Origin: Candidatus Nitrotoga sp. CP45
Lineage (GTDB): Bacteria > Pseudomonadota > Gammaproteobacteria > Burkholderiales > Gallionellaceae
Direction of reading: 5' to 3'
NCBI GenBank assembly: GCA_945874105.1
Contig: CAMCFJ010000013.1
Location: 1 to 64,000, forward strand
Length of the DNA stretch: 64,000 bases
Shown here: one piece after another, positions 43,373 through 54,509 of the stretch
Position numbering within the stretch: the first letter of the stretch is position 1
Layout of the letters: every line of letters starts with the position of its first letter
Position numbers and translations under genes: made by a program
Notes under the pieces: generated by a model
Databases searched by the model: none
The model's input: only the letters and a program-made list of their open reading frames with translations
Told to the model about the DNA's origin: nothing

Positions 43373-44302
43373 CTACTGATAAACTTTTCCAATCTGCCAA
43401 TTCGAAAACATTTTATCCGCCAACTCGCGTTGCTCTGGCGTCAAGGTAATTGAATCGCGCAATTTTTTCGCGTTTTCGTTACCGCCATATTCGACAGACA
43501 GATTGGCCCACACATAGGCCAGAAACTCGTCCTGCTTCTTTCCACTTCCCAAGTAGTACGCCAGAGCAAGGTTGTACTGTGCATCGGTATTTGCATGTGC
43601 AGCCGCTCTCTGCCATAACGCCACAGCCTTGTCGATATCCTTTGGCACACCTTCGCCAAAGTAGTACATCGAACCGAGATTAAATTGTGCGTCGGGATAG
43701 CCCTGCATTACCGCCAACTGCCAATATTCAACTGCTTTGGCAACATCCCTTGGCACACCTTCGCCTTTGTTGTACATCACCCCGAGGGTGAACAGTGCGT
43801 AGGGGAATCCCCGCTCTGCCGCATTCTGCCACCATTCCAAGGCCTTGGCGGGATCCTTCGGTATGCCCTTGCCGTCGCGGTACAGCCAACCGAGGTTTAA
43901 CTGCGCGTCGGCATTTCCCTGCGCCGATGCCTTTTGCAGCCAATCCACACCCTTGACATAATTCTTGGGCATACCGTCGCCGTTGACATACAACATGCCA
44001 AGGCCGGCTTGTGCCTTGGCATGGCCCTGTACTGCAGCTTTCTCATACCATTCGGCAGCCTTGTGGGTATCTTTCGCCAGGATTTTATTATTCCCACCGG
44101 TATCGTACATCCACGCTAAATCATACTGTGCGTTCGCATCACCCGATTCCGCAGCCATTTTCAATTGCGCAAGATGCTGTTCTGCTTCCAGATCTGCTGG
44201 CGAATCCGACATTGACTGACCATACGCACTCACCGCAACAGTAAGCAACAATGTAAAGAGCAATTTTCCTGTAATACGCATATAGATATTTACCAACGAC
44301 AT
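43373..44302 (-). CDS. Secreted Sel1-repeat protein
   Basis: A 309-residue protein with a signal peptide (LLFTLLLTVAVSAYGQS) and about six Sel1-like repeats of 36 residues, each of the form A--G---AQY-LG--Y--G-GVPKD--KA--W--KAA. Such solenoids bind partner proteins. The ATG at 44302 has GAGGT 8 bases upstream. The gene lies 69 bases downstream of the second Sel1 gene on the same strand, probably a tandem duplication. It is convergent with the efflux operon. The partner is unknown. Confidence 0.85.
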   Translation of the reverse strand: MSLVNIYMRITGKLLFTLLLTVAVSAYGQSMSDSPADLEAEQHLAQLKMAAESGDANAQYDLAWMYDTGGNNKILAKDTHKAAEWYEKAAVQGHAKAQAGLGMLYVNGDGMPKNYVKGVDWLQKASAQGNADAQLNLGWLYRDGKGIPKDPAKALEWWQNAAERGFPYALFTLGVMYNKGEGVPRDVAKAVEYWQLAVMQGYPDAQFNLGSMYYFGEGVPKDIDKAVALWQRAAAHANTDAQYNLALAYYLGSGKKQDEFLAYVWANLSVEYGGNENAKKLRDSITLTPEQRELADKMFSNWQIGKVYQ

Positions 44303-44370
44303 TTTTAGACCTCATTCAAATTCATTTGGAAAGTTAATTCAACGCTGACGCCTGTTACCAATAAATTCCA

Positions 44371-45042
44371 TTACCGGCTCAACACCTGCCCCGGCTTCCA
44401 GTTTGCGGAGAGTCGTTCTCCTTCGGCGCGCTGGACGGAATTCAAGTTGGTTAAATCGCGTAATTTTTTCGCATCTTCGTTGCCCTGTGCAGCAGCCAGA
44501 TTGTGCCATGCATAAGCCAATACTCCATCCTTTGCCACACCCCTACCATATTGATACATCCATCCGAGGCTGTTCTGCGCTTGGGCAAGGCCCTGCGCCG
44601 CCGCTTTTTGATACCATTCCACGGCCTTGGCGGGATCTTTCTTTACGCCTTCGCCGGTAAGGTGCATCTTCCCGAGTTCAAGCTGAGCCTTTGGGTATCC
44701 CTGCGCAGCAGCTTTCTGAAACCACTCTGCGGCCTTGTTTGGATCTTTAGTTACACTGGTCACAGTTTCACCACTGCCATACATTATCCCGAGTTCATAC
44801 TGAGCCCTGGGGTACCCTTGAATTGCAGCTTTTTGATACCACTCCACGGCCTTGTCGGCATCTACAAGTACACCTATGCCGTTGGCATACATCCATCCCA
44901 GGCGGGTCTGAGCACTGGCGTCACCGGCCTCTGCCAGTTTTTGCACTTGCCCCAAACTACTTGTTGCGGTCAACGCTTCTTCTGCTAAAACATAGCCATT
45001 TAACGCTAAAAGCAAGATCACAAACTGTACAATTATTTTCAT
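44371..45042 (-). CDS. Secreted Sel1-repeat protein
   Basis: About 223 residues from the ATG at 45042, which gives a clean signal peptide (IIVQFVILLLALNGYVLAEE); the frame is open to 45084. Four Sel1 repeats follow (QTRLGWMYANGIGVLVDADK, AQYELGIMYGSGE, AQLELGKMHLTGEGVKKDPA, AQNSLGWMYQYGRGVAKDGV). The C-terminal segment NLAAAQGNEDAKKLRDL resembles that of the neighbour. The 269 bases before it, up to the mtnA stop, are AT-rich and show no gene. Confidence 0.83.
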   Translation of the reverse strand: MKIIVQFVILLLALNGYVLAEEALTATSSLGQVQKLAEAGDASAQTRLGWMYANGIGVLVDADKAVEWYQKAAIQGYPRAQYELGIMYGSGETVTSVTKDPNKAAEWFQKAAAQGYPKAQLELGKMHLTGEGVKKDPAKAVEWYQKAAAQGLAQAQNSLGWMYQYGRGVAKDGVLAYAWHNLAAAQGNEDAKKLRDLTNLNSVQRAEGERLSANWKPGQVLSR

Positions 45043-45311
45043 ATTGGCCCCATCGTTATTACGGCATAAAAAATGCTGCCGCATGCATCACTTCCCCAAA
45101 TTGTTCTGACTAAGTTTCTTTAATATAGTGCCCGGGTATTAATTGTCAAGAGCTAATTTAAATGCCTGCAACAAGCAAATAAAATGTTCATTTTTGAAAC
45201 AAAAAACAAATTTTATTTTGAAATCATCAATATAAATTCACGCTAACAACGACTATGTGACTAACGCAAATTGACGTAGCACAAGTGTTCCGAAAACTCT
45301 TGGCATTTCCA

Positions 45312-46352
45312 TCAACTGAATAGCGCGCGCAGATTTCTAGCATCAGGTTGATGTATCACTCCCTTTTCGGTAATCAGCGCTGTAACCAATTCAGCAGGTG
45401 TAATATCAAACGCAGGGTTGCGAATCTGCACGCCCTGCGCAGCCCAGTGGAAATCCCGGAAGCCTTTTACCTCGTCTGCATGACGCTCTTCGATGGGAAT
45501 ATCCACACCGCTTGCGATGGACATGTCTATCGTGGAAAGCGGACAGGCCACATAGAATGGAATGTGGTGGCGTTGTGCCAGCACGGCGACCATATAGGTG
45601 CCAATCTTGTTGGCAACATCGCCATTCGCGGCTACGCGATCCGTGCCGACCACTACGGCATCCACTTCTCCGCGACTCATCATGAAGCCGGCCATATTAT
45701 CAGTGATGAGGGTCACCGGAATTTTTTCCTGCACCATCTCCCATGCAGTCAGGCGCGCACCTTGCAAGAAGGGACGCGTTTCGTCAGCAATAACGGAGAT
45801 TTTCTTACCTGCTTCCACGGCCGACCGAATGATACCCAACGCGGTGCCATGGCCAGCTGTAGCCAGCGCTCCGGCATTGCAATGGGTCAATACGCGTGCG
45901 CCATCCCGCAACAACTCGGCACCGTGCGACCCAAGTGCGCGATTGATGCGAATATCTTCGGCAAAAATCTCATGCGCTTCGGCCAGCAGGCGCATGGCTA
46001 CTTGCGAGTTGGATTCACTCGCTACGGCTTGCCATACCTGCTTCATGCGGGCTAACGCCCAAAACAAGTTGACCGCAGTCGGCCTGCTTTGGGCAAGAGT
46101 ATTAAAGCCTTCATTCATGCCGCGCTGGAAAGATTCATCAGTAACAGCGAGCCAACGATGTGCCTCCAGCGCCACGCCGTAGGCTGCCGCCACGCCGATG
46201 GCTGGAGCGCCACGCACGACCATACTGCGGATGCCTTCGGCCACAGAAGCGGCAGAATCATATTGCAAGTACATAAACGTGGCAGGCAAAATGCGCTGAT
46301 CTATCATTTCCAGCACACCATCCGACCAACGCAAAGTTTCAACTTTCATCAT
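45312..46352 (-). CDS. mtnA: Methylthioribose-1-phosphate isomerase
   Basis: A 346-residue enzyme that converts 5-methylthioribose 1-phosphate to methylthioribulose 1-phosphate. Family motifs are RSMVVRGAPAIGVAAAYGVA, VLTHCNAGALATAGHGTALG with the catalytic cysteine, and VVGTDRVAANGDVANKIGT with the catalytic aspartate. The end IRNPAFDITPAELVTALITE is typical. It is the last gene of the leftward operon mtnP-aldolase-apt-mtnA, 29 bases after apt. Length agrees with the family (about 345-350). Not an eIF2B subunit: the MtnA-specific Cys/Asp pair is present. Confidence 0.93.
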   Translation of the reverse strand: MMKVETLRWSDGVLEMIDQRILPATFMYLQYDSAASVAEGIRSMVVRGAPAIGVAAAYGVALEAHRWLAVTDESFQRGMNEGFNTLAQSRPTAVNLFWALARMKQVWQAVASESNSQVAMRLLAEAHEIFAEDIRINRALGSHGAELLRDGARVLTHCNAGALATAGHGTALGIIRSAVEAGKKISVIADETRPFLQGARLTAWEMVQEKIPVTLITDNMAGFMMSRGEVDAVVVGTDRVAANGDVANKIGTYMVAVLAQRHHIPFYVACPLSTIDMSIASGVDIPIEERHADEVKGFRDFHWAAQGVQIRNPAFDITPAELVTALITEKGVIHQPDARNLRALFS

Positions 46353-46381
46353 GACGCCTCATACAACGATTAATCAGGCGT

Positions 46382-46909
46382 TCAGTCACCCTCAAATTCA
46401 CACAGCGCAAACACACTATAGCCATGTTTCTCCAAGCGCTTACGTCCGCCGATATCCGGTAGATCAATGACATAACAGCATTCGACAATTTTGCCGCCAA
46501 TCTTCTCGATCAGTTTGGTTGCCGCCTCCGCCGTACCGCCGGTAGCAATTAGATCATCCACAAGCAATACCCTTTCGCCCGGAGCAATCGCATCGGTATG
46601 AATCTCGATACGGTCAGTCCCGTATTCCAGCTCGTAGTCGTGCCCTATAGTTTCTGCAGGCAACTTGCCTTTTTTACGAATCGGCACAAAACCTTTACCC
46701 AAGGCATACGCCAGCGGCGCGCCTACTATAAAACCACGCGCTTCGATACCTATCACCTTGTCGATTTCCATATCGGCATAGCGACGTACCAGCTCGTCTA
46801 TGGTGATCCTTAAGCCTATCGGATCCTTAAGGAGCGAAGTGATATCGCGGAACATGATATTCGGCTTGGGGTAGTGCGGAATGGTGCGAATACGAGATTT
46901 GATAGGCAT
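46382..46909 (-). CDS. apt: Adenine phosphoribosyltransferase
   Basis: A 175-residue enzyme that makes AMP from adenine and PRPP. The PRPP-binding motif is [40 protein letters not shown] and [20 protein letters not shown] are the other signatures. In this operon it recycles the adenine released by MtnP. It lies 15 bases after the aldolase gene and 29 before mtnA. Confidence 0.94.
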
Positions 46910-46924
46910 ATATATTCAAGGTTG

Positions 46925-47572
46925 TCAGGAGTGTTTTTTGTAATTGACGAATTTTTCTTGCACATCGCGCATTTGTTGCGGCGTAAGAATGTGCGGTTCA
47001 CCTACCTGCAAAGCGCGCCAGTACAACTCGCACAAAAATTCGACCTCAATGGCTACTGACAACGCATCGGCTAAATCCGAACCCAGCGCAATCATGCCGT
47101 GGTTAGCCAACAGACAGGCTTTTCGGCCCTCCAGCGCGGACAATGCAAAGTCTGAAAGTGTCTGCTCGCCAAACAACGCATAAGGTGTGCAACGAATGCT
47201 ATTGCCTCCCGCTGCGGCAATCATGTAATGCACGGCTGGTACATCCTTGCGCAAACAGGCCAACGTGGTGGCAAACGCTGAATGCGTGTGAATGACAGCG
47301 TTCACGTCGGGACGGCTGGCTAGAATGTCACGATGGAAGCGCCACTCGCTGGTAGGCTTGCCGCCGCACAGGGCATTGCCATTCAAATCCATGCTTACCA
47401 TGTCTGCGGGCATCATATCCGCCACCGCCATCGCAGACGGTGTAATCAACATACCCTCACCGCAACGCACGGCAGCATTGCCGGAAGTGCCGCGATTCAA
47501 ACCCAGATCGAGCAAACGCTGGGACACATCCAGTAACTGTAAGCGCAGGCCATCTTCACCGGATGGCGTCAT
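46925..47572 (-). CDS. Class II aldolase of the MTA salvage operon (Ald2/FucA-like)
   Basis: A 215-residue zinc-dependent class II aldolase or epimerase. RGTSGNAAVRCGEGMLITPS carries the phosphate-binding loop, VNAVIHTHSAFATTLACLRK the HTH zinc site, and ACLLANHGMIALGSDLADAL the third zinc histidine. In the MTA/DHAP shunt an aldolase of this type cleaves methylthioribulose 1-phosphate (or its 5-deoxy analogue) to DHAP and an aldehyde. The gene overlaps mtnP by four bases and mtnA is in the same operon, which supports that role. MtnB, a dehydratase of the same superfamily, is the alternative; no mtnC, mtnD or mtnE is present here, which argues against the full methionine salvage cycle at this locus. 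Confidence 0.8.
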   Translation of the reverse strand: MTPSGEDGLRLQLLDVSQRLLDLGLNRGTSGNAAVRCGEGMLITPSAMAVADMMPADMVSMDLNGNALCGGKPTSEWRFHRDILASRPDVNAVIHTHSAFATTLACLRKDVPAVHYMIAAAGGNSIRCTPYALFGEQTLSDFALSALEGRKACLLANHGMIALGSDLADALSVAIEVEFLCELYWRALQVGEPHILTPQQMRDVQEKFVNYKKHS

Positions 47573-48456
47573 GACTTACCCTTCAACACCCGACCCGCAA
47601 TCGCATCCAGCTTTTCAATCATCGCTGCGTCGCGCGCTTCCGGCGCAGTAATGAGCGCGAATTCCAATGTCGAGCGGCAGCTACAGGCATCAGCCAGGGC
47701 ATCACTGCGCACTTTCGGAATGACGTGCGTTACCAGCGTTTTCGCCTTATCAGCATTTTCGGTGAGCATCTTGATGATCTGCCCGACCGTGACATGCTCA
47801 TGGTCGGGATGCCAACAGTCAAAGTCAGTCACCATCGCCACGGTGGCGTAACACAACTCTGCCTCGCGCGCGAGCTTGGCCTCCGGCATGTTGGTCATGC
47901 CGATTACATCGCAGCCCCAGCTACGATAAAGATTCGACTCAGCCAGACTGGAAAACTGCGGCCCTTCCATAACCAGATAAGTACCGCCACGAACGACAGG
48001 AATATTTGCCTCTCGCGCGGCCATCTCAATATGATCGCCTAGCCTTTTGCAAACAGGGTGAGCCATGGAGACATGCGCCACCAAACCCGCACCAAAAAAA
48101 GACTTATTGCGCGCAAAAGTACGATCGATAAACTGATCAACAATCACAAACGTGCCAGGCGGCAAATCCTCGCGCAAGGAACCAACGGCACTAACAGAAA
48201 TGACATCAGTCACCCCTACCCGCTTCAGCACGTCGATATTGGCGTGAAAATTGATTTCGGTCGGAGGAATTTTGTGTCCGCGACCATGACGGGGCAAAAA
48301 CACAATATTGTGGCCGTCCAGTTCACCGAACAATAACTCGCTGGAGGGCTCCCCAAACGGCGAAGTGACCTTTTCCCAACGCTTGTTGGTCAACCCGGCA
48401 ATGTCGTAAATCCCGCTGCCGCCGATGATGCCTATTTTTTCTGGTACATGGATCAT
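47569..48456 (-). CDS. mtnP: 5'-methylthioadenosine phosphorylase
   Basis: A 295-residue PNP-family phosphorylase. KIGIIGGSGIYDIAGLTNKR opens the protein; FLPRHGRGHKIPPTEINFHA binds phosphate; TYLVMEGPQFSSLAESNLYR and DVIGMTNMPEAKLAREAELC hold the substrate site. It cleaves methylthioadenosine (and probably 5'-deoxyadenosine) to adenine and a pentose 1-phosphate. It is the first gene of the operon; its start faces the island at 48476-54464. Methylthioadenosine is the by-product of spermidine-type aminopropyl transfer, a metabolic link to speD in the island. Confidence 0.92.
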   Translation of the reverse strand: MIHVPEKIGIIGGSGIYDIAGLTNKRWEKVTSPFGEPSSELLFGELDGHNIVFLPRHGRGHKIPPTEINFHANIDVLKRVGVTDVISVSAVGSLREDLPPGTFVIVDQFIDRTFARNKSFFGAGLVAHVSMAHPVCKRLGDHIEMAAREANIPVVRGGTYLVMEGPQFSSLAESNLYRSWGCDVIGMTNMPEAKLAREAELCYATVAMVTDFDCWHPDHEHVTVGQIIKMLTENADKAKTLVTHVIPKVRSDALADACSCRSTLEFALITAPEARDAAMIEKLDAIAGRVLKGKS

Positions 48457-48475: not shown

Positions 48476-48558
48476 AAATTTACAGACAGATTGAAACAGG
48501 AAGTACAGTTTTATTCAAGACAATGAATGCTTGCCCACGCTATCGCCTTTAACAAACG
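48476..48558. repeat. Left 83-bp direct repeat bounding the accessory island
   Basis: The sequence from AAATTTACAGAC to CTTTAACAAACG recurs at 54382-54464 in the same orientation with 3 mismatches in 83. It lies 20 bases upstream of the mtnP start. The two copies enclose six cluster genes, brnTA and xre. Confidence 0.85.
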
Positions 48559-48560
48559 GC

Positions 48561-48592
48561 GTAGGTTGGCGCTGAGCTTGCGAAGCCCAACA
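48561..48592. repeat. Half copy of a dispersed GTAGG-TTGG-type repeat
   Basis: GTAGGTTGGCGCTGAGCTTG with GCGAAGCCCAAC resembles the left arm of the palindromic element at 48961-49040. It lies directly after the left direct repeat. Confidence 0.4.
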
Positions 48593-48606
48593 CAAAATCA
48601 AGCCAT

Positions 48607-48671
48607 GTAGGGTGGGCACGTTTTTGTGCCCACGCGGATCGTCATTTTGGGGCAGACAGCAAGCGCAGCCA
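48607..48671. repeat. Truncated copy of the 54211-54366 MITE
   Basis: These 65 bases, with 5 more on the left, are identical to the first 70 bases of the right-hand copy (54206-54275) in the same orientation, then diverge. The hairpin GGGCACGTTTTTGTGCCC is included. Only one terminal repeat remains. Confidence 0.8.
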
Positions 48672-48900
48672 AGGCTGTGGCGGCCAACACCACGCCGAGC
48701 GAAAAGATCAGGTAAACGTCGAGAAACTGGTTGCCCGCATACCGGTAAGCTTCCTTTTGCAACACCATCGAAGCGGAGAGCAGCAACACCGCCCACACCA
48801 TGGTTCACGCTATCCGCAAGAATCCATGGCGCAGCAAATTGCCGCGCGCGACAAACAAACTGGAGCCGAAAAATGCCAGCGTGATCCCCAGCGTTTGGAG
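48650..48900 (-). pseudogene. Possible remnant of a membrane-protein gene
   Basis: A minus-strand frame reads LGITLAFFGSSLFVARGNLL, RHGFLRIA, an in-frame TGA, then TMVWAVLLLSASMVLQKEAY, RYAGNQFLDVYLIFSLGVVL and AATALAALAV, before running into the truncated MITE. The hydrophobic stretches look like membrane helices of a lost gene. I cannot name the family, and it may not be coding. Confidence 0.25.
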
Positions 48901-48960
48901 TTTCGAAAATTTGGGGCTTGCAAGCTTCACCCCAGCGGGCTATTGGCTATCAAATGATTT

Positions 48961-49040
48961 TGTAGGCTGGCGGTGAACTTGCGAGCCCTAGCATTTCGTG
49001 AATGTGTGATGCTGGGGTTCGTACCTCACTCCAGCCTACA
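48961..49040. repeat. 80-bp imperfect palindrome
   Basis: TGTAGGCTGG (48961-48970) pairs with CCAGCCTACA (49031-49040), and the interior also pairs imperfectly (CGAGCCCTAGCA with TGCTGGGGTTCG). It ends 2 bases before the stop codon of the membrane-protein gene and is a repeat of the type widely dispersed in proteobacteria; it may also terminate transcription. Confidence 0.6.
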
Positions 49041-49042
49041 TG

Positions 49043-49573
49043 CTAACTTCCGAAGAAAGATTTCCATACCTGTTCCAACAGGGTAATGCCGCCGAAGATT
49101 ACAAGAGTCCAGTAAAGGTTGCCGATGAGGGTGGAGGCGATTAAAATCTTCCAATCTCTCGCACTCATGCCGTTATATTTATGTGCGCCATGGCGCATGT
49201 AGAGCATCACGTTGAACGGGCTGAGTTTAAAAGACAGCGCAATCAAGAGAAAGGCGTTACCTTTTTTCATCATCCACTGGAGGAGTTTTTCAAGACGGCT
49301 TTCTCCCCTGCCTTCCCGCACTTCTTTGATTATCTCAATTCCCAACCAGTCTTTTTTTGATCGGTCGTACCATTTGATAATGGCGAGATCAAGGAAAATT
49401 GACAAGGCGACCATAACCGAACCACCGATGATTGGTCCGAGTTGCCAGATGACAAATGTGTAGAGGCCGTAGTCAAACCCATATACCACGACAGCATTCA
49501 TGAGATAACCGAGACCAAGAATCCCGAGTCTCTGTTTGTGTTTCGTTATGAATGAGTTTGTCGTATTAACCAT
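49043..49573 (-). CDS. Unrecognised inner-membrane protein, last gene of the island cluster
   Basis: A 176-residue protein (ATG at 49573; the frame continues to a TTG at 49621). Three or four hydrophobic helices are visible: AVVVYGFDYGLYTFVIWQLG, IIGGSVMVALSIFLDLAIIK and, at the C-terminus, ILIASTLIGNLYWTLVIFGG. A basic, charged cytoplasmic loop (KKDWLGIEIIKEVREGRGES) lies between. NAFLLIALSFKLSPFNVMLY is a further amphipathic segment. It lies 79 bases after the second SET gene on the same strand. I do not recognise a family; it could be an exporter subunit or a membrane anchor for the system. Confidence 0.65.
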   Translation of the reverse strand: MVNTTNSFITKHKQRLGILGLGYLMNAVVVYGFDYGLYTFVIWQLGPIIGGSVMVALSIFLDLAIIKWYDRSKKDWLGIEIIKEVREGRGESRLEKLLQWMMKKGNAFLLIALSFKLSPFNVMLYMRHGAHKYNGMSARDWKILIASTLIGNLYWTLVIFGGITLLEQVWKSFFGS

Positions 49574-49652
49574 AATTGGCGTAGCGAAATAAGGTGCGAA
49601 AGTAGCAAGGTTGAAGAGCAATGATGCAAGGAACAGCGCGCCACCGTCATCT

Positions 49653-50165
49653 TCACGTCATGCGCTGCGCAATAAATTTCTCCTGAATATAGGGCTGCCA
49701 ATATCCTGCATACTTTTGTTGAAGCCCCGGTATTTTCCAGTCGTCGCCGGAAATGAATCCGCGGCACTCATCTTCCCCGCACGCACACGGCATATTGCCA
49801 AAATCGCAGGTCATGCAGGTCGCGTAGTCGAAGGTCACCCGTTCTCCGGCTGCGATGGCTTTCATCGCCACCAATTGTTGCGTGCCGCGAAACCCCGCGT
49901 TCGGGTTGCAGCTATGATTAAAAAATTCGCCGTCCGACATATCCTCTGCCTGCATCGGGCCAAACAAGAGATCCGGGTTTTCGCTGATCTGATAGGGAAA
50001 ATGCTGAACTTCGGGCGGCAGCAGGTTAAATTCTTCCAGCGTCATCACGCGCCCGCCAAATACGGCAAGCAATTCGCCACTCGCAACATCCTGCGTGACG
50101 AACTGGCCCTTGCCTAATTCACATTCGGCGACAGCAAGTTTCGGGTTGACCCAGATGAAGTTCAT
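49653..50165 (-). CDS. SET-domain protein (lysine-methyltransferase-like) no. 2
   Basis: A 170-residue SET domain with little else. The N-terminal strand AVAECELGKGQFVTQDVASG matches the SET opening (G-G-F---DI--GE). GEFFNHSCNPNAGF is the SAM-binding NHSC motif, and GERVTFDYATC supplies the catalytic tyrosine region. A post-SET cysteine set follows: CMTC then CACGEDECRG, which usually holds zinc with the NHSC cysteine. SET enzymes methylate lysines of proteins such as histones or ribosomal proteins; the substrate here is unknown. The ATG at 50165 has AGGAG 8 bases upstream. It starts 24 bases after the deoxyhypusine-synthase-like gene. Confidence 0.85.
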   Translation of the reverse strand: MNFIWVNPKLAVAECELGKGQFVTQDVASGELLAVFGGRVMTLEEFNLLPPEVQHFPYQISENPDLLFGPMQAEDMSDGEFFNHSCNPNAGFRGTQQLVAMKAIAAGERVTFDYATCMTCDFGNMPCACGEDECRGFISGDDWKIPGLQQKYAGYWQPYIQEKFIAQRMT

Positions 50166-50189
50166 TTTCTGCACTCCTGCGCATAAAAA

Positions 50190-51215
50190 TCAAAACGCTT
50201 GCCCGATCAGCCGCTCGGCTTCTTCTGGAAATTCCATGGCCTCCAGCAATGCCTGGATCATCATCGGCGCAACAATTGTCGCGTCGCTTTCGATGACATG
50301 CATGGGCGTATCCTTGGTCAGCTTGTCCCAGGTAATTTTTTCGTTCGGAGTCGCGCCAGAATAGGAGCCGTAGGAGGTGGTCGAGTCGCTGATCTGGCAG
50401 AAATACGCCCAGGGCTTGGCTTCTTTTTGCAAATCCTGTTTTAAGCTCGGCACCACGCAGATCGGGAAATCTCCGGCGATGCCGCCGCCAATCTGGAAGA
50501 AACCCACACCGGCGCCCGGCGAAAGCTGGTTCTGGTAAATATCATAAAGATTTGCCATGTACTCGATATCGGACTTGGCAATGCTGGCGGTCAGCTCGCC
50601 CGAATAACAATAGCTGGCAAAAATATTCCCGAACGTTGAATCGGCGTAGCCGCCTGCCATCAGTGGCAAATTCATTTCGGCGGCGGCCAGCAGCCAGCAC
50701 TCCTCGGGTTTACCTTCGTACTCGGCCTTGAGTGCCGGGTCGGTGATCAGCTCATAGAAATACTCGTGCCAGAACCTTCTGTCGCCAGTCTCTTGAGCCT
50801 TCTTCCACATCGGGACAATCAGTTTTTCGACTTTTTGGAACGCCTCATCCTCCGGGATGCTGGTATCGGTGACACGGCTCAGACGATTATTCAGGATCGC
50901 TTCATCGTCTTCTTTTCTGAGGTAGCGGTAGTCGTAAAAATTCTTGTAGTGCGAATGCGCAACCAGACGAAACAGCGACTCTTCCAGATTGGCTCCGGTC
51001 ACCGAAATGCCGTGGATCAAGCCCTTGCGAATGGCGGGCGCGAGATAGATGCCGAGCCGAGCACTAGACATCGCGCCCGCCACCGCCCAGAACATTTTGC
51101 CGCCATTGTTGATGTGCCTGTGATAATCGAGCAGTGCATTCTTCAGCGCGGCGGCATTGAAGTGGTGATAAGACTTGAGGATGAACTCCAGCATTGGCAG
51201 GGCGGGTGTTTTCAT
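50190..51215 (-). CDS. Deoxyhypusine synthase family enzyme
   Basis: A 341-residue protein. Landmarks: MFWAVAGAMSSARLGIYLAP and HGISVTGANLEESLFRLVAH (NAD-binding Rossmann part), SFQ-like segment FFQIGGGIAGDFPICVVPSL, and GSYSGATPNEKITWDKLTKD where Lys298 (WDKL) aligns with the lysine that carries the aminobutyl imine in deoxyhypusine synthase (WGKI). Eukaryotic and archaeal enzymes transfer the aminobutyl group of spermidine to eIF5A; bacterial relatives include homospermidine synthases that use putrescine. No eIF5A-like gene is in the window. The ATG at 51215 has AAGGA 9 bases upstream. The gene lies between brnT (divergent) and the second SET gene. Confidence 0.87.
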   Translation of the reverse strand: MKTPALPMLEFILKSYHHFNAAALKNALLDYHRHINNGGKMFWAVAGAMSSARLGIYLAPAIRKGLIHGISVTGANLEESLFRLVAHSHYKNFYDYRYLRKEDDEAILNNRLSRVTDTSIPEDEAFQKVEKLIVPMWKKAQETGDRRFWHEYFYELITDPALKAEYEGKPEECWLLAAAEMNLPLMAGGYADSTFGNIFASYCYSGELTASIAKSDIEYMANLYDIYQNQLSPGAGVGFFQIGGGIAGDFPICVVPSLKQDLQKEAKPWAYFCQISDSTTSYGSYSGATPNEKITWDKLTKDTPMHVIESDATIVAPMMIQALLEAMEFPEEAERLIGQAF

Positions 51216-51253
51216 GACAGATATTTCCTTATGTCGGCTATGCGCAAAAAAGA

Positions 51254-51289
51254 TTGACGGCCTTTATTTATGTACATACAATAATTAGC
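51254..51289 (+). promoter_or_regulatory. brnTA promoter with palindromic operator
   Basis: TTGACG (51254-51259) and TACAAT (51277-51282) are 17 bases apart, near consensus for sigma-70. The perfect palindrome TATGTACATA (51269-51278) overlaps the spacer and the -10 box. Transcription would begin at about 51289-51290, that is, at the brnT ATG. BrnA is known to repress its own operon, so the palindrome is its likely site. Confidence 0.7.
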
Positions 51290-51565
51290 ATGGACATCAG
51301 CTTCGACCCCGCCAAAAACGCCCGCAATATTGCGTTGCGCGGCTTGAGTTTCGAGCGGGCGGCGGAGCTTGATTTCCAGACGGCGGTATTTACGCTGGAT
51401 GACCGGCACGATTACGGCGAGACTCGTCATCGTGTGCAGGGCTTCCTTGATGGCCGCCTGCATGCGCTGGTGTTCGTGGAAACCGCTGAGGGTATCCGCG
51501 TCATCAGCTTCCGCAAGGCGAACAAACGCGAGGTGCGAGAATATGAACAAGCGACCCAACCCTGA
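51290..51565 (+). CDS. brnT: BrnT-family ribonuclease toxin
   Basis: A 91-residue RelE-fold toxin. MDISFDPAKNARNIALRGLS is the BrnT opening (F-W-P-KA--N--KHG-SF), then ELDFQTAVFTLDDRHDYGET, ALVFVETAEGIRVISFRKAN and KREVREYEQ. BrnT cleaves RNA and is neutralised by BrnA. The ATG at 51290 was chosen because the family match starts there; the frame is open to 51254, but that would overlap the -35 box. There is no ribosome binding site and the predicted transcript starts at the ATG, so the message may be leaderless. It overlaps brnA by 23 bases. Confidence 0.88.
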   Translation: MDISFDPAKNARNIALRGLSFERAAELDFQTAVFTLDDRHDYGETRHRVQGFLDGRLHALVFVETAEGIRVISFRKANKREVREYEQATQP

Positions 51566-51812
51566 GATGATCGACGACGAAAATCCCGAATGGGCAAAAG
51601 AGGATTTCAAGCGTGCAGTGCCCTTTTCCGCTCTGCCGAAAACCTTGCAGGCCAAATTGCGCGGCCGCCCCAAGGCGGCGGTGACCAAGGAACGCATCAC
51701 CATTCGCCTGTCGCCGGAAGTCGTGGAGCGCTTCCGGGCAAGCGGCGACGGCTGGCAAACGCGCGTGGATGCCGCCCTGAAAGATTGGCTCAAGACGCAC
51801 TCGCCGGTGTAA
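51543..51812 (+). CDS. brnA: BrnA-family antitoxin and repressor
   Basis: An 89-residue ribbon-helix-helix antitoxin. DDENPEWAKEDFKRAVPFSA is the toxin-binding N-terminal part and KERITIRLSPEVVERFRASG is the DNA-binding ribbon and helix. GDGWQTRVDAALKDWL completes the fold. The ATG at 51543 has GAGG 9 bases upstream and lies inside the brnT 3' end, the usual coupled order with the toxin first. The frame upstream to 51369 is a shadow of brnT. Its stop lies 6 bases from that of the convergent SET gene. Confidence 0.87.
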   Translation: MNKRPNPEMIDDENPEWAKEDFKRAVPFSALPKTLQAKLRGRPKAAVTKERITIRLSPEVVERFRASGDGWQTRVDAALKDWLKTHSPV

Positions 51813-51818
51813 GTCATT

Positions 51819-52325
51819 TCAGGTTCCGACACGGTTCATCGTCCGCTCGACGATGAACCGTTGCACGATGCCCAGCGCCAGATAGCGCGCCCGCAGTTCG
51901 ACCGGAAGCGTCGGAAAGTTGGCGACTATGCCGCGACACAGGGCGCTCCCGCAGCGGCATGGCATACTCCACCCCCCAGGCACATCCTCCTCCCACATGG
52001 TGGTGGAATAGTCGTAACGAATCTCCTCCCCAACTGCGATGGGCCGGAGCGCAACCAATACCACGTCATTACGGATGCCCGCGTTGGGTTCGCACGAGTG
52101 GTTGCCGAACACACCCGGTGCTTCCAAGTCGATGTAATCCGCCGAGCCGACCTGAAGCGGATTGCCTTCGGTGTCTCCCTTGGCGATGGCCTCGGCCAAA
52201 CCGATCAGCGGGCCGGTGAAACGCAGGATGGATTCGTTGGTAGCGAAGGCCTGCGCCGCAAATAGCCCGCGACCGAGTTCGCAATCTGCGATGAAGATGG
52301 GCTCTAGCTGTGCGTGTGCTGTCAT
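51819..52325 (-). CDS. SET-domain protein (lysine-methyltransferase-like) no. 1
   Basis: A 168-residue SET domain. FIADCELGRGLFAAQAFATN opens the fold; GVFGNHSCEPNAGI is the NHSC motif; GEEIRYDYSTTMWEEDVPGG is the catalytic tyrosine segment; PCRCGSALCRG is the post-SET cysteine set. The end LGIVQRFIVERTMN differs from that of the second SET protein, so the two are paralogues with different C-terminal tails. Its ATG overlaps the stop of the PRMT-like gene by four bases, so lysine- and arginine-type methyltransferases are co-translated here. The 3' end meets brnA head-on with 6 bases between stops. Confidence 0.85.
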   Translation of the reverse strand: MTAHAQLEPIFIADCELGRGLFAAQAFATNESILRFTGPLIGLAEAIAKGDTEGNPLQVGSADYIDLEAPGVFGNHSCEPNAGIRNDVVLVALRPIAVGEEIRYDYSTTMWEEDVPGGWSMPCRCGSALCRGIVANFPTLPVELRARYLALGIVQRFIVERTMNRVGT

Positions 52326-53173
52326 CGCGCCGAGTTGCTGTTGGGCGCAATTGCATAGTGCAGACTACCCAACCCTTCGCACATCCGGTAGCTGAGATCG
52401 ACGATCACCGTTTCACCCGCGTTCACATCAAATTTCGCGAAAGGAAGGATAAGGGGGTAGCTGTAGGCGGGCGAAGTTTCAAACGTGCCCCCTACGCAGA
52501 AAATCGTTGTTGTGCTGAGCCTCAATCCATTGACGCTGCCGCCCTGATGGATGGTAAATTCTAGCCGCGTATTGACCCGGTTGTCGCTGACAGGTTGCGA
52601 GAAATCAATGCGCTTGTAGGTCAGTCGGTTCGATAAAATGCTGGAACGCAAACTTTCATCATCTGGAAATTCATAGCACAAAAGATCAAATTTTTTGCCG
52701 TAATATATATTCTGCTGGCACACAAGTTCGGCGTGGCAATGATATTGCTCAAGCACCACCCGATAACCCGGATTGACTTGCCGCAGCATGTTGTTCATGA
52801 CGGGTATTTGCAGCTCTTCGATGAGCGACGTGGCGATCATTTCGCAGACGATGACGTCAACCTTTTCCGGCAATTTCAGCGTGGTCGCATCGCCTTGAAT
52901 AACCTGGATACGGTCGCCATAGCCGTTAGCAGAAAAAATTGCCTGTAACACTTTGATATTGTTTTCGTCGAACTCAAGTGCGTAAACTTTTTTCGCCCCG
53001 GCATCGGCGGCGAACATGGCCATAACGCCGCTGCCGCTGCCCGCATCGACGACAACATCGCCCGGGCGGACGGTTTTTTCGATGGCTGTTTTGAACGCCG
53101 CAGTGCGCTCTTCGTCGATCAAACAACAAAAGACACCTTCAGTCATCGACCAATATTCTTTGAGACTAGCCAT
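52322..53173 (-). CDS. Protein arginine methyltransferase-like enzyme (PRMT fold)
   Basis: A 283-residue class I methyltransferase with PRMT features. SLKEYWSMTEGVFCCLIDEE with RTAAFKTAI resembles the PRMT N-terminal helix. Motif I is VVDAGSGSGVMAMFAADAGA (residues 41-60). CEMIATSLIEE (110-120) fits the double-E loop, with Glu111 and Glu120 nine residues apart, the pair that binds the substrate guanidinium in PRMTs. The C-terminal half is beta-rich, and GSLHYAI stands where the THW loop is expected, with its histidine. Eukaryotic PRMT cores are about 310 residues, so this is compact. Bacterial members are uncommon. The substrate is unknown. It lies 44 bases after speD. Confidence 0.78.
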   Translation of the reverse strand: MASLKEYWSMTEGVFCCLIDEERTAAFKTAIEKTVRPGDVVVDAGSGSGVMAMFAADAGAKKVYALEFDENNIKVLQAIFSANGYGDRIQVIQGDATTLKLPEKVDVIVCEMIATSLIEELQIPVMNNMLRQVNPGYRVVLEQYHCHAELVCQQNIYYGKKFDLLCYEFPDDESLRSSILSNRLTYKRIDFSQPVSDNRVNTRLEFTIHQGGSVNGLRLSTTTIFCVGGTFETSPAYSYPLILPFAKFDVNAGETVIVDLSYRMCEGLGSLHYAIAPNSNSAR

Positions 53174-53217
53174 GTGCGCTCCGGTGATTTTCTAAAATGT
53201 ACAAAGCAGCGGCATCA

Positions 53218-53637
53218 TCAAAAATCCGCCACCGGATAGCGCTTGCCGCGCACGACAAAATTCGTCTCCAGCTCCTCAAAACCGAACACTTCGCGGAAGT
53301 ACGCTTCGACCTCGGCGGTGGGCAGACCGTTGCGGCAGGTATAGACGTCGATGCTGGCGAAGCGCCGTCCGGGGAAGGTGTGGATGCTAATGTGGCTTTC
53401 GGCGATGACCACGACACCGCTCCAACCGCCGGGGTCTTTGATACCGTTTGGCTCTGCCCAATGCACCGCCGGTTCGGCCAGCTTTTGCATACCAAGCCTT
53501 TCCGGCAAATCACTTAGGCAATTTTGAACCAGCTCACGATCCAGAAGTTTTTCGCGCAAACCACGGTAAGCGTCGATCATGAAGTGTTCGCCGAAATGCT
53601 CGCCGCAGTCTGGCGCTTGTTGTTCAGTACTAAACAT
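53218..53637 (-). CDS. speD: S-adenosylmethionine decarboxylase (pyruvoyl, SpeD class 1B-like)
   Basis: A 139-residue proenzyme. VVVIAESHISIHTFPGRRFA is the processing and active-site segment: cleavage before Ser81 would create the pyruvoyl group, with His86 (SIHTFP) and Cys101 (IDVYTC) as the processing and catalytic residues of the small bacterial/archaeal class. The product, decarboxylated SAM, is the aminopropyl donor for spermidine-type polyamines. No spermidine synthase gene is in the window. It is the first gene of the leftward cluster. A GGAGG lies 14 bases before the ATG, longer than ideal. Confidence 0.9.
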   Translation of the reverse strand: MFSTEQQAPDCGEHFGEHFMIDAYRGLREKLLDRELVQNCLSDLPERLGMQKLAEPAVHWAEPNGIKDPGGWSGVVVIAESHISIHTFPGRRFASIDVYTCRNGLPTAEVEAYFREVFGFEELETNFVVRGKRYPVADF

Positions 53638-53685
53638 TTTTATTTGCGATGCCTCCAGGTTGACGGAGCTTGCGTAGGGGGGATG

Positions 53686-53715
53686 AGCATAGCGTTATCC
53701 GCCGAATGAGTTGAA
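53686..53715 (-). promoter_or_regulatory. Candidate speD cluster promoter
   Basis: On the minus strand TTCAAC (53715-53710) and TATGCT (53691-53686) are 18 bases apart, about 50 bases before the speD ATG. The inverted repeat at 53722-53749 lies just upstream of the -35 box, where an activator or regulator could bind. The boxes are moderate. Confidence 0.35.
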
Positions 53716-53721
53716 CCATGT

Positions 53722-53749
53722 GGTGCAATAACCAACATGGTATTGCACC
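53722..53749. promoter_or_regulatory. Inverted repeat GGTGCAATA-10-TATTGCACC
   Basis: Nine-base perfect arms at 53722-53730 and 53741-53749 with a 10-base spacer, in the speD-xre divergent region. The spacing suggests a dimeric regulator on successive turns of the helix. Confidence 0.6.
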
Positions 53750-53770
53750 TTATGTAGACCAGTAATTATG

Positions 53771-53784
53771 CGGTACATGTACCG
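53771..53784. promoter_or_regulatory. Perfect 14-bp palindrome CGGTACATGTACCG upstream of xre
   Basis: It lies 36-49 bases before the xre ATG. XRE-family dimers bind palindromes of this size, so autoregulation is likely. Its core GTACATGTAC shares the GTACAT string with the brnTA palindrome. Confidence 0.55.
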
Positions 53785-53819
53785 TGGCTTAATGCGCATC
53801 ATAACGAAATGATGGCGGC

Positions 53820-54062
53820 ATGCCAAATCTTTCGAAAAACCGTCAAGACCCAGTGTTGATCGCGCTTGGAGAAACGATCAGGCGCATTCGTTTATCGAAA
53901 GGTATTTCTCAGGAAAAGCTGGCGCTATTAGCAGAAGTTGATCGCAGCTATGTCGGGCGGGTGGAACGTGGGGACAACAATGTTGCAGTACTGACGCTCG
54001 CACGCTTGGCTGGCGCATTGGATATTTCCATATCAAAACTGATGCAGGAAGCTGATTTATAA
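53820..54062 (+). CDS. XRE-family transcriptional regulator
   Basis: An 80-residue single helix-turn-helix protein. LGETIRRIRLSKGISQEKLA, LLAEVDRSYVGRVERGDNNV and LTLARLAGALDISISKLMQE fit the HTH_3 fold along nearly its whole length. No sensor domain is present. The gene is divergent from speD, with 182 bases between them that hold two palindromes. It resembles small controllers of mobile or accessory modules (including restriction C-proteins) and probably controls the cluster. Confidence 0.85.
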   Translation: MPNLSKNRQDPVLIALGETIRRIRLSKGISQEKLALLAEVDRSYVGRVERGDNNVAVLTLARLAGALDISISKLMQEADL

Positions 54063-54210
54063 ATGAGCAGCAAAATCAAGGGGAAGTCTTGACACAACGT
54101 TAGGTCAGATGCGTGATGTCAAGGCTTGACCCCTTGATTCTTTTCCTTGCTGTCATTCCGAAACGAAGTGCTGAATCTTGCATACTCCACAAGATTTCTC
54201 CTTTCAGCCA

Positions 54211-54366
54211 TGTAGGGTGGGCACGTTTTTGTGCCCACGCGGATCGTCATTTTGGGGCAGACAGCAAGCGCAGCCTGGGCTAGCGTAGATCGTGTCGGTG
54301 ATTCGATTTCCACCTTCGGCGACGGTGAGATTTTCTACGTGGGCACAAAAACGTGCCCACCCTACA
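54211..54366. repeat. MITE-like element with 29-bp terminal inverted repeats
   Basis: TGTAGGGTGGGCAC with GTTTTTGTGCCCACG (54211-54239) is repeated in perfect inversion at 54338-54366. Each terminal repeat is itself a hairpin (GTGGGCAC/GTGCCCAC). The 98-bp interior has no gene. A truncated copy lies at 48607-48671. Bases 54063-54210, between xre and this element, show no gene. Confidence 0.8.
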
Positions 54367-54381
54367 GGGCTAGAATTCACC

Positions 54382-54464
54382 AAATTTACAGACCGATTGA
54401 AACAGGAAGTACAGTTTTATTCAAGGCAATGAATGCTTGCCCACGCTATTGCCTTTAACAAACG
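54382..54464. repeat. Right 83-bp direct repeat bounding the accessory island
   Basis: Matches 48476-48558 with 3 differences. It lies 15 bases after the MITE and 46 bases before the nadE ATG. If an ancestor had a single copy between divergent mtnP and nadE, the island entered at this site. Confidence 0.85.
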
Positions 54465-54509
54465 TTGGTATGATACCCATCCATTACCTATTTGAACTCA
54501 GAACTCAAG

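Follow-up and report, generated by a model that had tools for sequence, protein, structure and literature searches.

In genomes that lack SpeE, homologues of SpeD can be arginine or ornithine decarboxylases, and those of the arginine type are mostly clustered with speY (Li and co-workers, PMC10407285). The published clusters include SpeDA with SpeY, SpeDC with HSS, and others (PMC10407285). SpeY is a homologue of deoxyhypusine synthase (DHS) that makes homospermidine (PMC10407285; PMC9992855), and another DHS homologue, CdmS of Thermus, couples two agmatines (PMC10981699). In diatoms, fusions of S-adenosylmethionine (AdoMet) decarboxylase (SAMDC), aminopropyltransferase and histone methyltransferase have been reported (PMC12029483). 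The subject of this work is a group of six genes at 49043-53637, on the minus strand of a 64,000-nucleotide stretch (the window) of contig CAMCFJ010000013.1 of Candidatus Nitrotoga sp. CP45, in which genes of the SpeD family and of the DHS family (SpeY type) lie together with genes for a PRMT-like enzyme, two SET-domain proteins and a membrane protein. The gene set is one real unit, which, judging by its sequence relatives, probably makes and methylates a polyamine.

A preliminary description of the window held that no system of this composition was known. This is only partly right. The open-access literature, with subscription papers mostly outside its coverage, gave no account of a system that combines SpeD, SpeY, SET and PRMT genes, but SpeD-derived decarboxylases with SpeY are on record (PMC10407285), as are the diatom fusions (PMC12029483). 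The locus resembles the SpeDA and SpeDC clusters in having a SpeD homologue clustered with SpeY or HSS in SpeE-less genomes, those of the candidate phyla radiation included. It differs in that its SpeD lacks the Gln and Thr of SpeDC and keeps the Pro of AdoMet decarboxylase (AdoMetDC), in its additional SET, PRMT-like and membrane genes, and in a SpeY that belongs to a clade with fixed changes (PMC10407285). With the diatom fusions it shares the joining of the SpeD family to a histone-type methyltransferase domain in what is probably polyamine synthesis, but here the genes are separate, the second enzyme is of DHS type and there is no canonical aminopropyltransferase (PMC12029483). CdmS is similar in its DHS family, catalytic Lys and small-molecule acceptor; however, it uses agmatine, and the residues differ at two pocket positions (PMC10981699). 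Hypusination, in which DHS acts on eIF5A, is alike in family and catalytic Lys, but the cluster in the window holds no acceptor protein and its DHS-family protein scores far under the cut-offs of the NCBIfam DHS models.

The five enzymes and membrane protein noted earlier on one strand are all present as co-directional open reading frames, and Pfam backs the SpeD, SET and DHS assignments. Read 5' to 3', they are a SpeD-family pyruvoyl decarboxylase of a subgroup marked by KD-x-GG and HTF (53218-53637), the PRMT-like class I methyltransferase (52322-53173), SET-domain protein 1 (SET1, 51819-52325), SpeY (50190-51215), SET-domain protein 2 (SET2, 49653-50174) and the membrane protein (49043-49621). 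The intergenic gaps are 44, -4, 603, 15 and 31 nt; SET1 thus overlaps the PRMT-like gene by 4 nt, and the 603-nt interval between SET1 and speY holds a BrnT/BrnA pair on the opposite strand. The membrane protein has a listed TTG start and an in-frame ATG 16 codons downstream. None of the cluster proteins reaches an NCBIfam equivalog cut-off, although Pfam supports the family names. The key residues named in the preliminary description are intact: Ser81, His86 and Cys101 of SpeD, Lys298 of SpeY, the NHSC motif and post-SET cysteines of both SET proteins, and Glu111 and Glu120 of the PRMT-like protein.

A scan of species genomes with the DHS-like protein gave 347 relatives, of which the best 80 were kept as loci. 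In the locus of the top relative (L002, SpeY 81% identical), speD, speY, a SET gene, the membrane gene and the PRMT-like gene are five consecutive genes separated by -4, 15, -4 and -8 nt. Their products are 51% (SpeD), 46% (SET2), 49% (membrane protein) and 50% (PRMT-like) identical to those in the window. The order speY-SET-membrane, with the membrane gene directly after SET, is common to both; otherwise the genes are rearranged. Chance can hardly explain the composition of the cluster, given that the five families stand side by side and closely spaced in L002. The earlier proposal of one unit with polyamine-type and methylation enzymes, to be given up if the families never occurred together elsewhere, has therefore survived.

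It is still conceivable, if unlikely, that a SpeD-SpeY homospermidine module sits by chance beside unlinked methyltransferases and a membrane protein. The locus of the second relative (L003, SpeY 75% identical, in the Paceibacterota) has speD-speY only, the following gene resembling an EamA-like protein of L134 that is itself under the Pfam cut-off, and speD and speY adjoin in both L002 and L003. Among the best 80 of the 347 SpeY loci, tblastn at E 1e-5 detected the PRMT-like gene and the membrane gene in L002 only; a SpeD homologue is present in L002, L003 and L013 only, the last being of another SpeD type. Seven loci of L003's phylum (L132-L138) also carry the window's SpeD subgroup, and no relatives of SpeY, SET, the PRMT-like protein or the membrane protein were found in the 10-15 kb around each (tblastn, E 1e-4). 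There are few cases by which to judge: with the window's own genome counted each time, the membrane protein was found in 1 of 398 genomes sampled from that genome's phylum, and 5 of 369 from its class have the PRMT-like protein at E <=1e-20. Four relatives from the class carry a PRMT-like gene (26-29% identical) but no SpeD, SET, membrane or SpeY gene in the surrounding 13-17 kb, and were rejected as further cases. Against a chance assembly, the tight operon of L002 retains the five families despite rearrangement.

The reading we tentatively favour, at just short of even confidence, is a horizontally acquired polyamine-tailoring operon in which a homospermidine-type polyamine would be built and then N-methylated by the SET and PRMT-like enzymes. 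In the order of steps that we infer, the SpeD-family enzyme would form its own pyruvoyl group and decarboxylate an amino acid, ornithine or arginine rather than AdoMet. The SpeY-type enzyme, using NAD and forming an imine at Lys298, would next pass an aminobutyl group to another amine to give the homospermidine-type polyamine. Ordinary AdoMet would be the methyl source when the SET and PRMT-like enzymes N-methylate this amine, rather than a protein, and the membrane protein may serve to transport the product. The SpeY chemistry is the firmest of these steps. A bolder version, which we consider rather unlikely, is a bacterial pathway for N-methylated homospermidine-type polyamines. In it the small SET proteins, members of a family otherwise known for methylating lysine, would act with the PRMT-like enzyme on free polyamine, which a SpeD-derived amino-acid decarboxylase of a new kind and a SpeY of changed specificity would supply. 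Such a pathway would be a bacterial parallel, in separate genes, to the diatom long-chain-polyamine fusions, of which Michael 2011 is said to be the source. If true, SET enzymes would be extended to small polyamines in bacteria, there would be one more SpeD specificity to examine, and bacteria would offer a simple model of the way in which silica-shell polyamines may become methylated in diatoms.

With respect to SpeY, PF01916 matches with 117.2 bits (cut-off 27), and the catalytic Lys298, like 133 other positions, does not vary among the 81 SpeY-type proteins aligned. The homospermidine biosynthesis model NF001980 is the best of seven models, although its score of 101.3 bits lies under the cut-off of 450. 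A quick tree built from 83 SpeY-type proteins places those of the window, L002 and L003 in one clade (SH-aLRT 100). This clade has nine fixed changes at sites where at least 90% of the other 78 SpeYs agree: N15S, N18H, Q53R, D92N, P188G, E191A, V203C, G216D and F306H. Several are radical in kind; P188, E191, G216 and F306 of the other SpeYs have become G, A, D and H, so that the three proteins depart from SpeY residues at these places, and P188 and E191 adjoin a conserved DSTFGN stretch that aligns with DHS. The number of changes was dropped as a sign of anything unusual, since two other clades with long stems have 10 and 9; the differences lie in kind and place only. An altered second substrate for the window's clade is possible on these grounds.

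These changes bear on the first idea of the preliminary description, that the DHS-like enzyme aminobutylates a lysine of a protein, which the SET and PRMT enzymes then methylate. DHS, SET and PRMT relatives do act on proteins, and Glu191, kept by 78 of 78 other SpeYs, is lost in the window's clade at a place where the DHS 8put has Val. Yet the Lys298 end has the same residues as in other SpeYs, which make homospermidine (PMC9992855; PMC10407285), and the cluster contains no acceptor protein, so that we consider modification of a protein quite improbable. Counting for the methylated polyamine instead, though the link is weak, are SET genes in the Nomurabacteria-Adlerbacteria clade. In three of eight loci there, all from Nomurabacteria (L032, L043 and L076), such a gene begins 2.3-2.8 kb past speY; none was found in the other five, of which L029 holds only about 2 kb downstream; L070, the nearest to L043, is among those without it. 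Elsewhere, in L158 (5525-7210) and L159, the neighbour of a SpeDC-like SpeD is a divergent protein of the DHS family, 45-47% identical to the window's. The SpeY of L051, titled Comamonas sp., falls among Corallococcus in the tree, perhaps through contamination or a mislabelled assembly.

The window's SpeD matches PF02675 with 83.5 bits (cut-off 25), and narrowly misses the AdoMet decarboxylase equivalog TIGR03330 (73.4 bits, cut-off 75.65). Its substrate motif reads HTFPG, compared with HTWPE in solved AdoMet decarboxylases (PDB 1tlu and 2iii, which we take to be the enzymes of T. maritima and Aquifex). In T. maritima, Phe49, Trp70 and Glu72 bind the adenosyl part, and Phe49 occupies the place aligned with Lys67 of the window. 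KD-x-GG and HTF, with Phe for Trp, are found in 10 of 10 SpeDs of the subgroup (those of the window, L002, L003 and the seven other loci). Of 33 SpeD sequences aligned and used for a tree, nine have WPE, and KD-x-GG is in none of the nine. In this tree SpeDs of L002 and L003 pair with support 100/98 (starred), and that of the window pairs with a protein of L003's phylum (G1082) with support 94/89 (unstarred), the wider grouping being weak. SpeD homologues (E 1e-6) occur in 29 of 379 genomes of that phylum, L003's own included. An unannotated SpeD homologue (37% identical to the window's) is also present at 2342-2698 of LR756501.1, a 735-kb record of an uncultured phage.

By the criteria of PMC10407285, the window's SpeD is neither clearly SpeDC nor clearly SpeDA. 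In the diagnostic SpeDC set (Gln, Thr, Phe, Tyr), Phe88 and Tyr99 are present and Gln and Thr absent. Because neither class fits clearly and the Pro of AdoMetDC is kept, an amino acid is favoured as substrate only tentatively, ornithine or arginine being more likely than AdoMet. The preliminary description had SpeD as the maker of the aminopropyl donor, a role that finds no support here, given the absence of HTWPE, its KD-x-GG subgroup, and SpeE-like proteins without GGG(D/E)G in these genomes.

The role could be rescued if a true AdoMet decarboxylase fed a non-canonical aminopropyltransferase, namely the PRMT-like protein, a guanidinoacetate methyltransferase (GAMT)-like protein or a PRK04457-type protein elsewhere in the genome. 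Pro89 is kept, the TIGR03330 score is barely under its cut-off, the neighbour of SpeD in G903 scores on PF01564 (26.1 bits, cut-off 22.9), PRK04457-type proteins (polyamine aminopropyltransferase by NCBIfam name) are present in G000 and G369, and methylthioadenosine (MTA) salvage genes adjoin the cluster. But WPE is lost, and the PRK04457-type proteins score 219 and 283.8 against a cut-off of 304 and lack GGG(D/E)G. Moreover, the PRMT-like protein keeps R23, which we take to be the counterpart of PRMT1 Arg54, holding the AdoMet carboxylate. This is the least probable of the explanations weighed here.

A guanidino-polyamine is likewise very improbable. SpeD would make agmatine, SpeY would couple agmatine in the manner of CdmS, and the PRMT-like or GAMT-like enzyme would methylate the guanidino end. 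The precedent of CdmS speaks for it (PMC10981699), as do the double acidic loop of the PRMT-like protein, which would suit a guanidine, and G903 (L133, 7137-9860), where a SpeD gene of the subgroup adjoins a GAMT homologue (E 4.5e-32). In addition, an agmatinase (PF00491) was found in 0 of 11 genomes searched, the window's included (AguA and AguB were not searched in G000). However, the places of CdmS Phe204 and Leu286, mapped through the numbering of human DHS, are Asn197 and Tyr285 here, as in other SpeYs, and L003 has no methyltransferase at speD-speY. The window, L002 and, with the GAMT homologue of G903, L133 thus each have an N-methyltransferase next to or near a SpeD of the subgroup, three loci in all; by eye, none was seen beside SpeD in L132, L134-L138 and L003. 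The same segment of L133 also encodes a peptidase C26 and a GCS2-like protein, and may be another amine-tailoring cluster.

Polyamine genes elsewhere in the genomes were also compared. PF02675 and PF01916 are each matched once in the window's genome, inside the cluster, and no spermidine synthase with the canonical motif was found there. The genome has two PF01564 matches over the cut-off, both partial, and that of L002 has two spermidine-synthase-like proteins; none of the four has GGG(D/E)G. This motif (PMC11107197) recovers two of three full-length SpeE controls: GGGDG in G930, where the SpeE and a PF02784 decarboxylase lie beside a WPE-type speD, and GGGEG in G1073, elsewhere in the genome; the SpeE beside speD in G890 reads GAGEG and is missed. 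Lack of SpeE was dropped as a marker of the subgroup, six of nine genomes with WPE SpeD being without PF01564 and six of 10 subgroup genomes having some match. Since PF01564 is thus found in three of nine WPE genomes and six of 10 subgroup genomes, presence or absence of SpeE proves nothing alone. The window's genome also has one PF02784 protein, LysA-like by eye. In the L003 genome, a metagenome-assembled genome of 0.6 Mb, there was no match to PF01276, PF02784, PF01564 or PF00491 (AguA and AguB were not searched), so that among the families searched SpeD is the sole candidate to feed SpeY.

Turning to the methyltransferases (METHYLTRANSFERASES, SET and PRMT-like proteins), SET1 and SET2 match PF00856 with 41.1 bits (E 2.6e-10) and 31.5 bits (E 2.4e-7; cut-off 22.4), and both have the residues of SET methyltransferases. 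Searched as a profile, they are closest to the SET domains of histone-lysine enzymes (KMT2A/MLL, E 3.8e-25); a further match is BurB (9l4t, E 6.2e-16), presumably a protein of a small-molecule pathway. The PRMT-like protein matches general methyltransferase families and PRMT5 (PF05185, 29.2 bits, cut-off 22.9). Its best solved relative is PRMT6 (E 7e-15, over the AdoMet domain, residues 18-123), and the acidic residues of its double loop are nine apart, in keeping with an AdoMet domain. PRMTs have a C-terminal beta barrel that carries the THW loop. No PRMT C-terminal family was found for this protein among the 25 Pfam matches listed; C-terminal strands appear in a predicted model, but this is a poor one, built from two sequences and with a mean pLDDT of 49. 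The membrane protein has hydrophobic stretches, no Pfam match at E 1 and no PDB match better than E 0.3. Alignments of the PRMT-like and membrane proteins to viral contigs gave no relative, and that of SpeD one weak one (23%). On plasmids neither the membrane protein (E 1e-3) nor SpeY (E 1e-30) found a match, and two plasmid matches to the PRMT-like protein (29% and 36%) were set aside, being annotated as a non-ribosomal peptide synthetase and an L11 methyltransferase.

Several observations weigh against a polyamine built from a decarboxylated amino acid and then methylated. Complete five-family cases number only two, and L003 is without a methyltransferase beside speD-speY. The closest resemblance of the SET and PRMT-like proteins is to enzymes that methylate proteins. 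Only two of the four SpeDC residues are present, at positions inferred in this analysis, and Pro89 is the Pro that PMC10407285 uses to separate AdoMetDC from ADC; its position is Ala or Asp in three of 10 subgroup members. A PF01564 match is present in six of 10 subgroup genomes (G000, G369, G903, G1049, G815 and G838), none with GGG(D/E). A 750-residue pyridoxal phosphate decarboxylase (PF01276) in the window's genome, with no NCBIfam assignment above cut-off, could already supply a diamine. MTA salvage genes adjoin the cluster, as expected if aminopropyl transfer made MTA, but lie outside the repeats described below.

The cluster is bracketed by direct repeats, which, like the BrnT/BrnA pair within it, had escaped the preliminary description. 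The left block (48476-48676) consists of units of 83 and 76 nt, and the right block (54206-54464) holds direct copies of them: the 83-nt unit lies at 48476 and 54382 (96% identical) and the 76-nt unit at 48601 and 54206 (97%), so that 48476-54464 is enclosed. The hairpin part has an inverted copy at 54335-54365. The repeat blocks may be copies of a repeat that is dispersed in the genome and through which the insertion came about. The segment so bracketed was probably acquired horizontally. Since the SpeY and SpeD trees join genomes of 2.5 and 3.2 Mb and a Paceibacterota genome of 0.6 Mb, we infer that the speD-speY pair moved between distant lineages, in one direction or the other.

The BrnT/BrnA toxin-antitoxin pair (plus strand, 51254-51812), which splits the cluster, is not thought to be part of the pathway. 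BrnT (51254-51565) matches PF04365 (E 1.8e-20) and BrnA (51369-51812) matches PF14384 over residues 72-141 (E 3.9e-23); the true start of BrnA is probably downstream of the listed TTG. Divergent from speD is a small helix-turn-helix (HTH) regulator (plus strand, 53820-54062), which scores 54.7 bits on NF006015 (cut-off 204) and matches PADLOC control-protein models. A defence system was considered and dropped, as PADLOC matched nothing but the HTH protein and, within the PRMT-like protein, its AdoMet domain (mad2, residues 34-147; MTase_II). To the right of the repeats is an NAD synthetase-like gene, recognised by eye, at 54492. To the left, at 45312-48456 on the minus strand, genes for MTA phosphorylase, a fuculose-phosphate-aldolase-like protein, APRT and MtnA lie in a row; none of these proteins reaches the MtnB cut-off, and the row appears to be a route of MTA disposal adjoining the cluster. 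Beyond it, at 43373-45084 on the same strand, are two adjacent genes that by eye encode Sel1-like repeat proteins.

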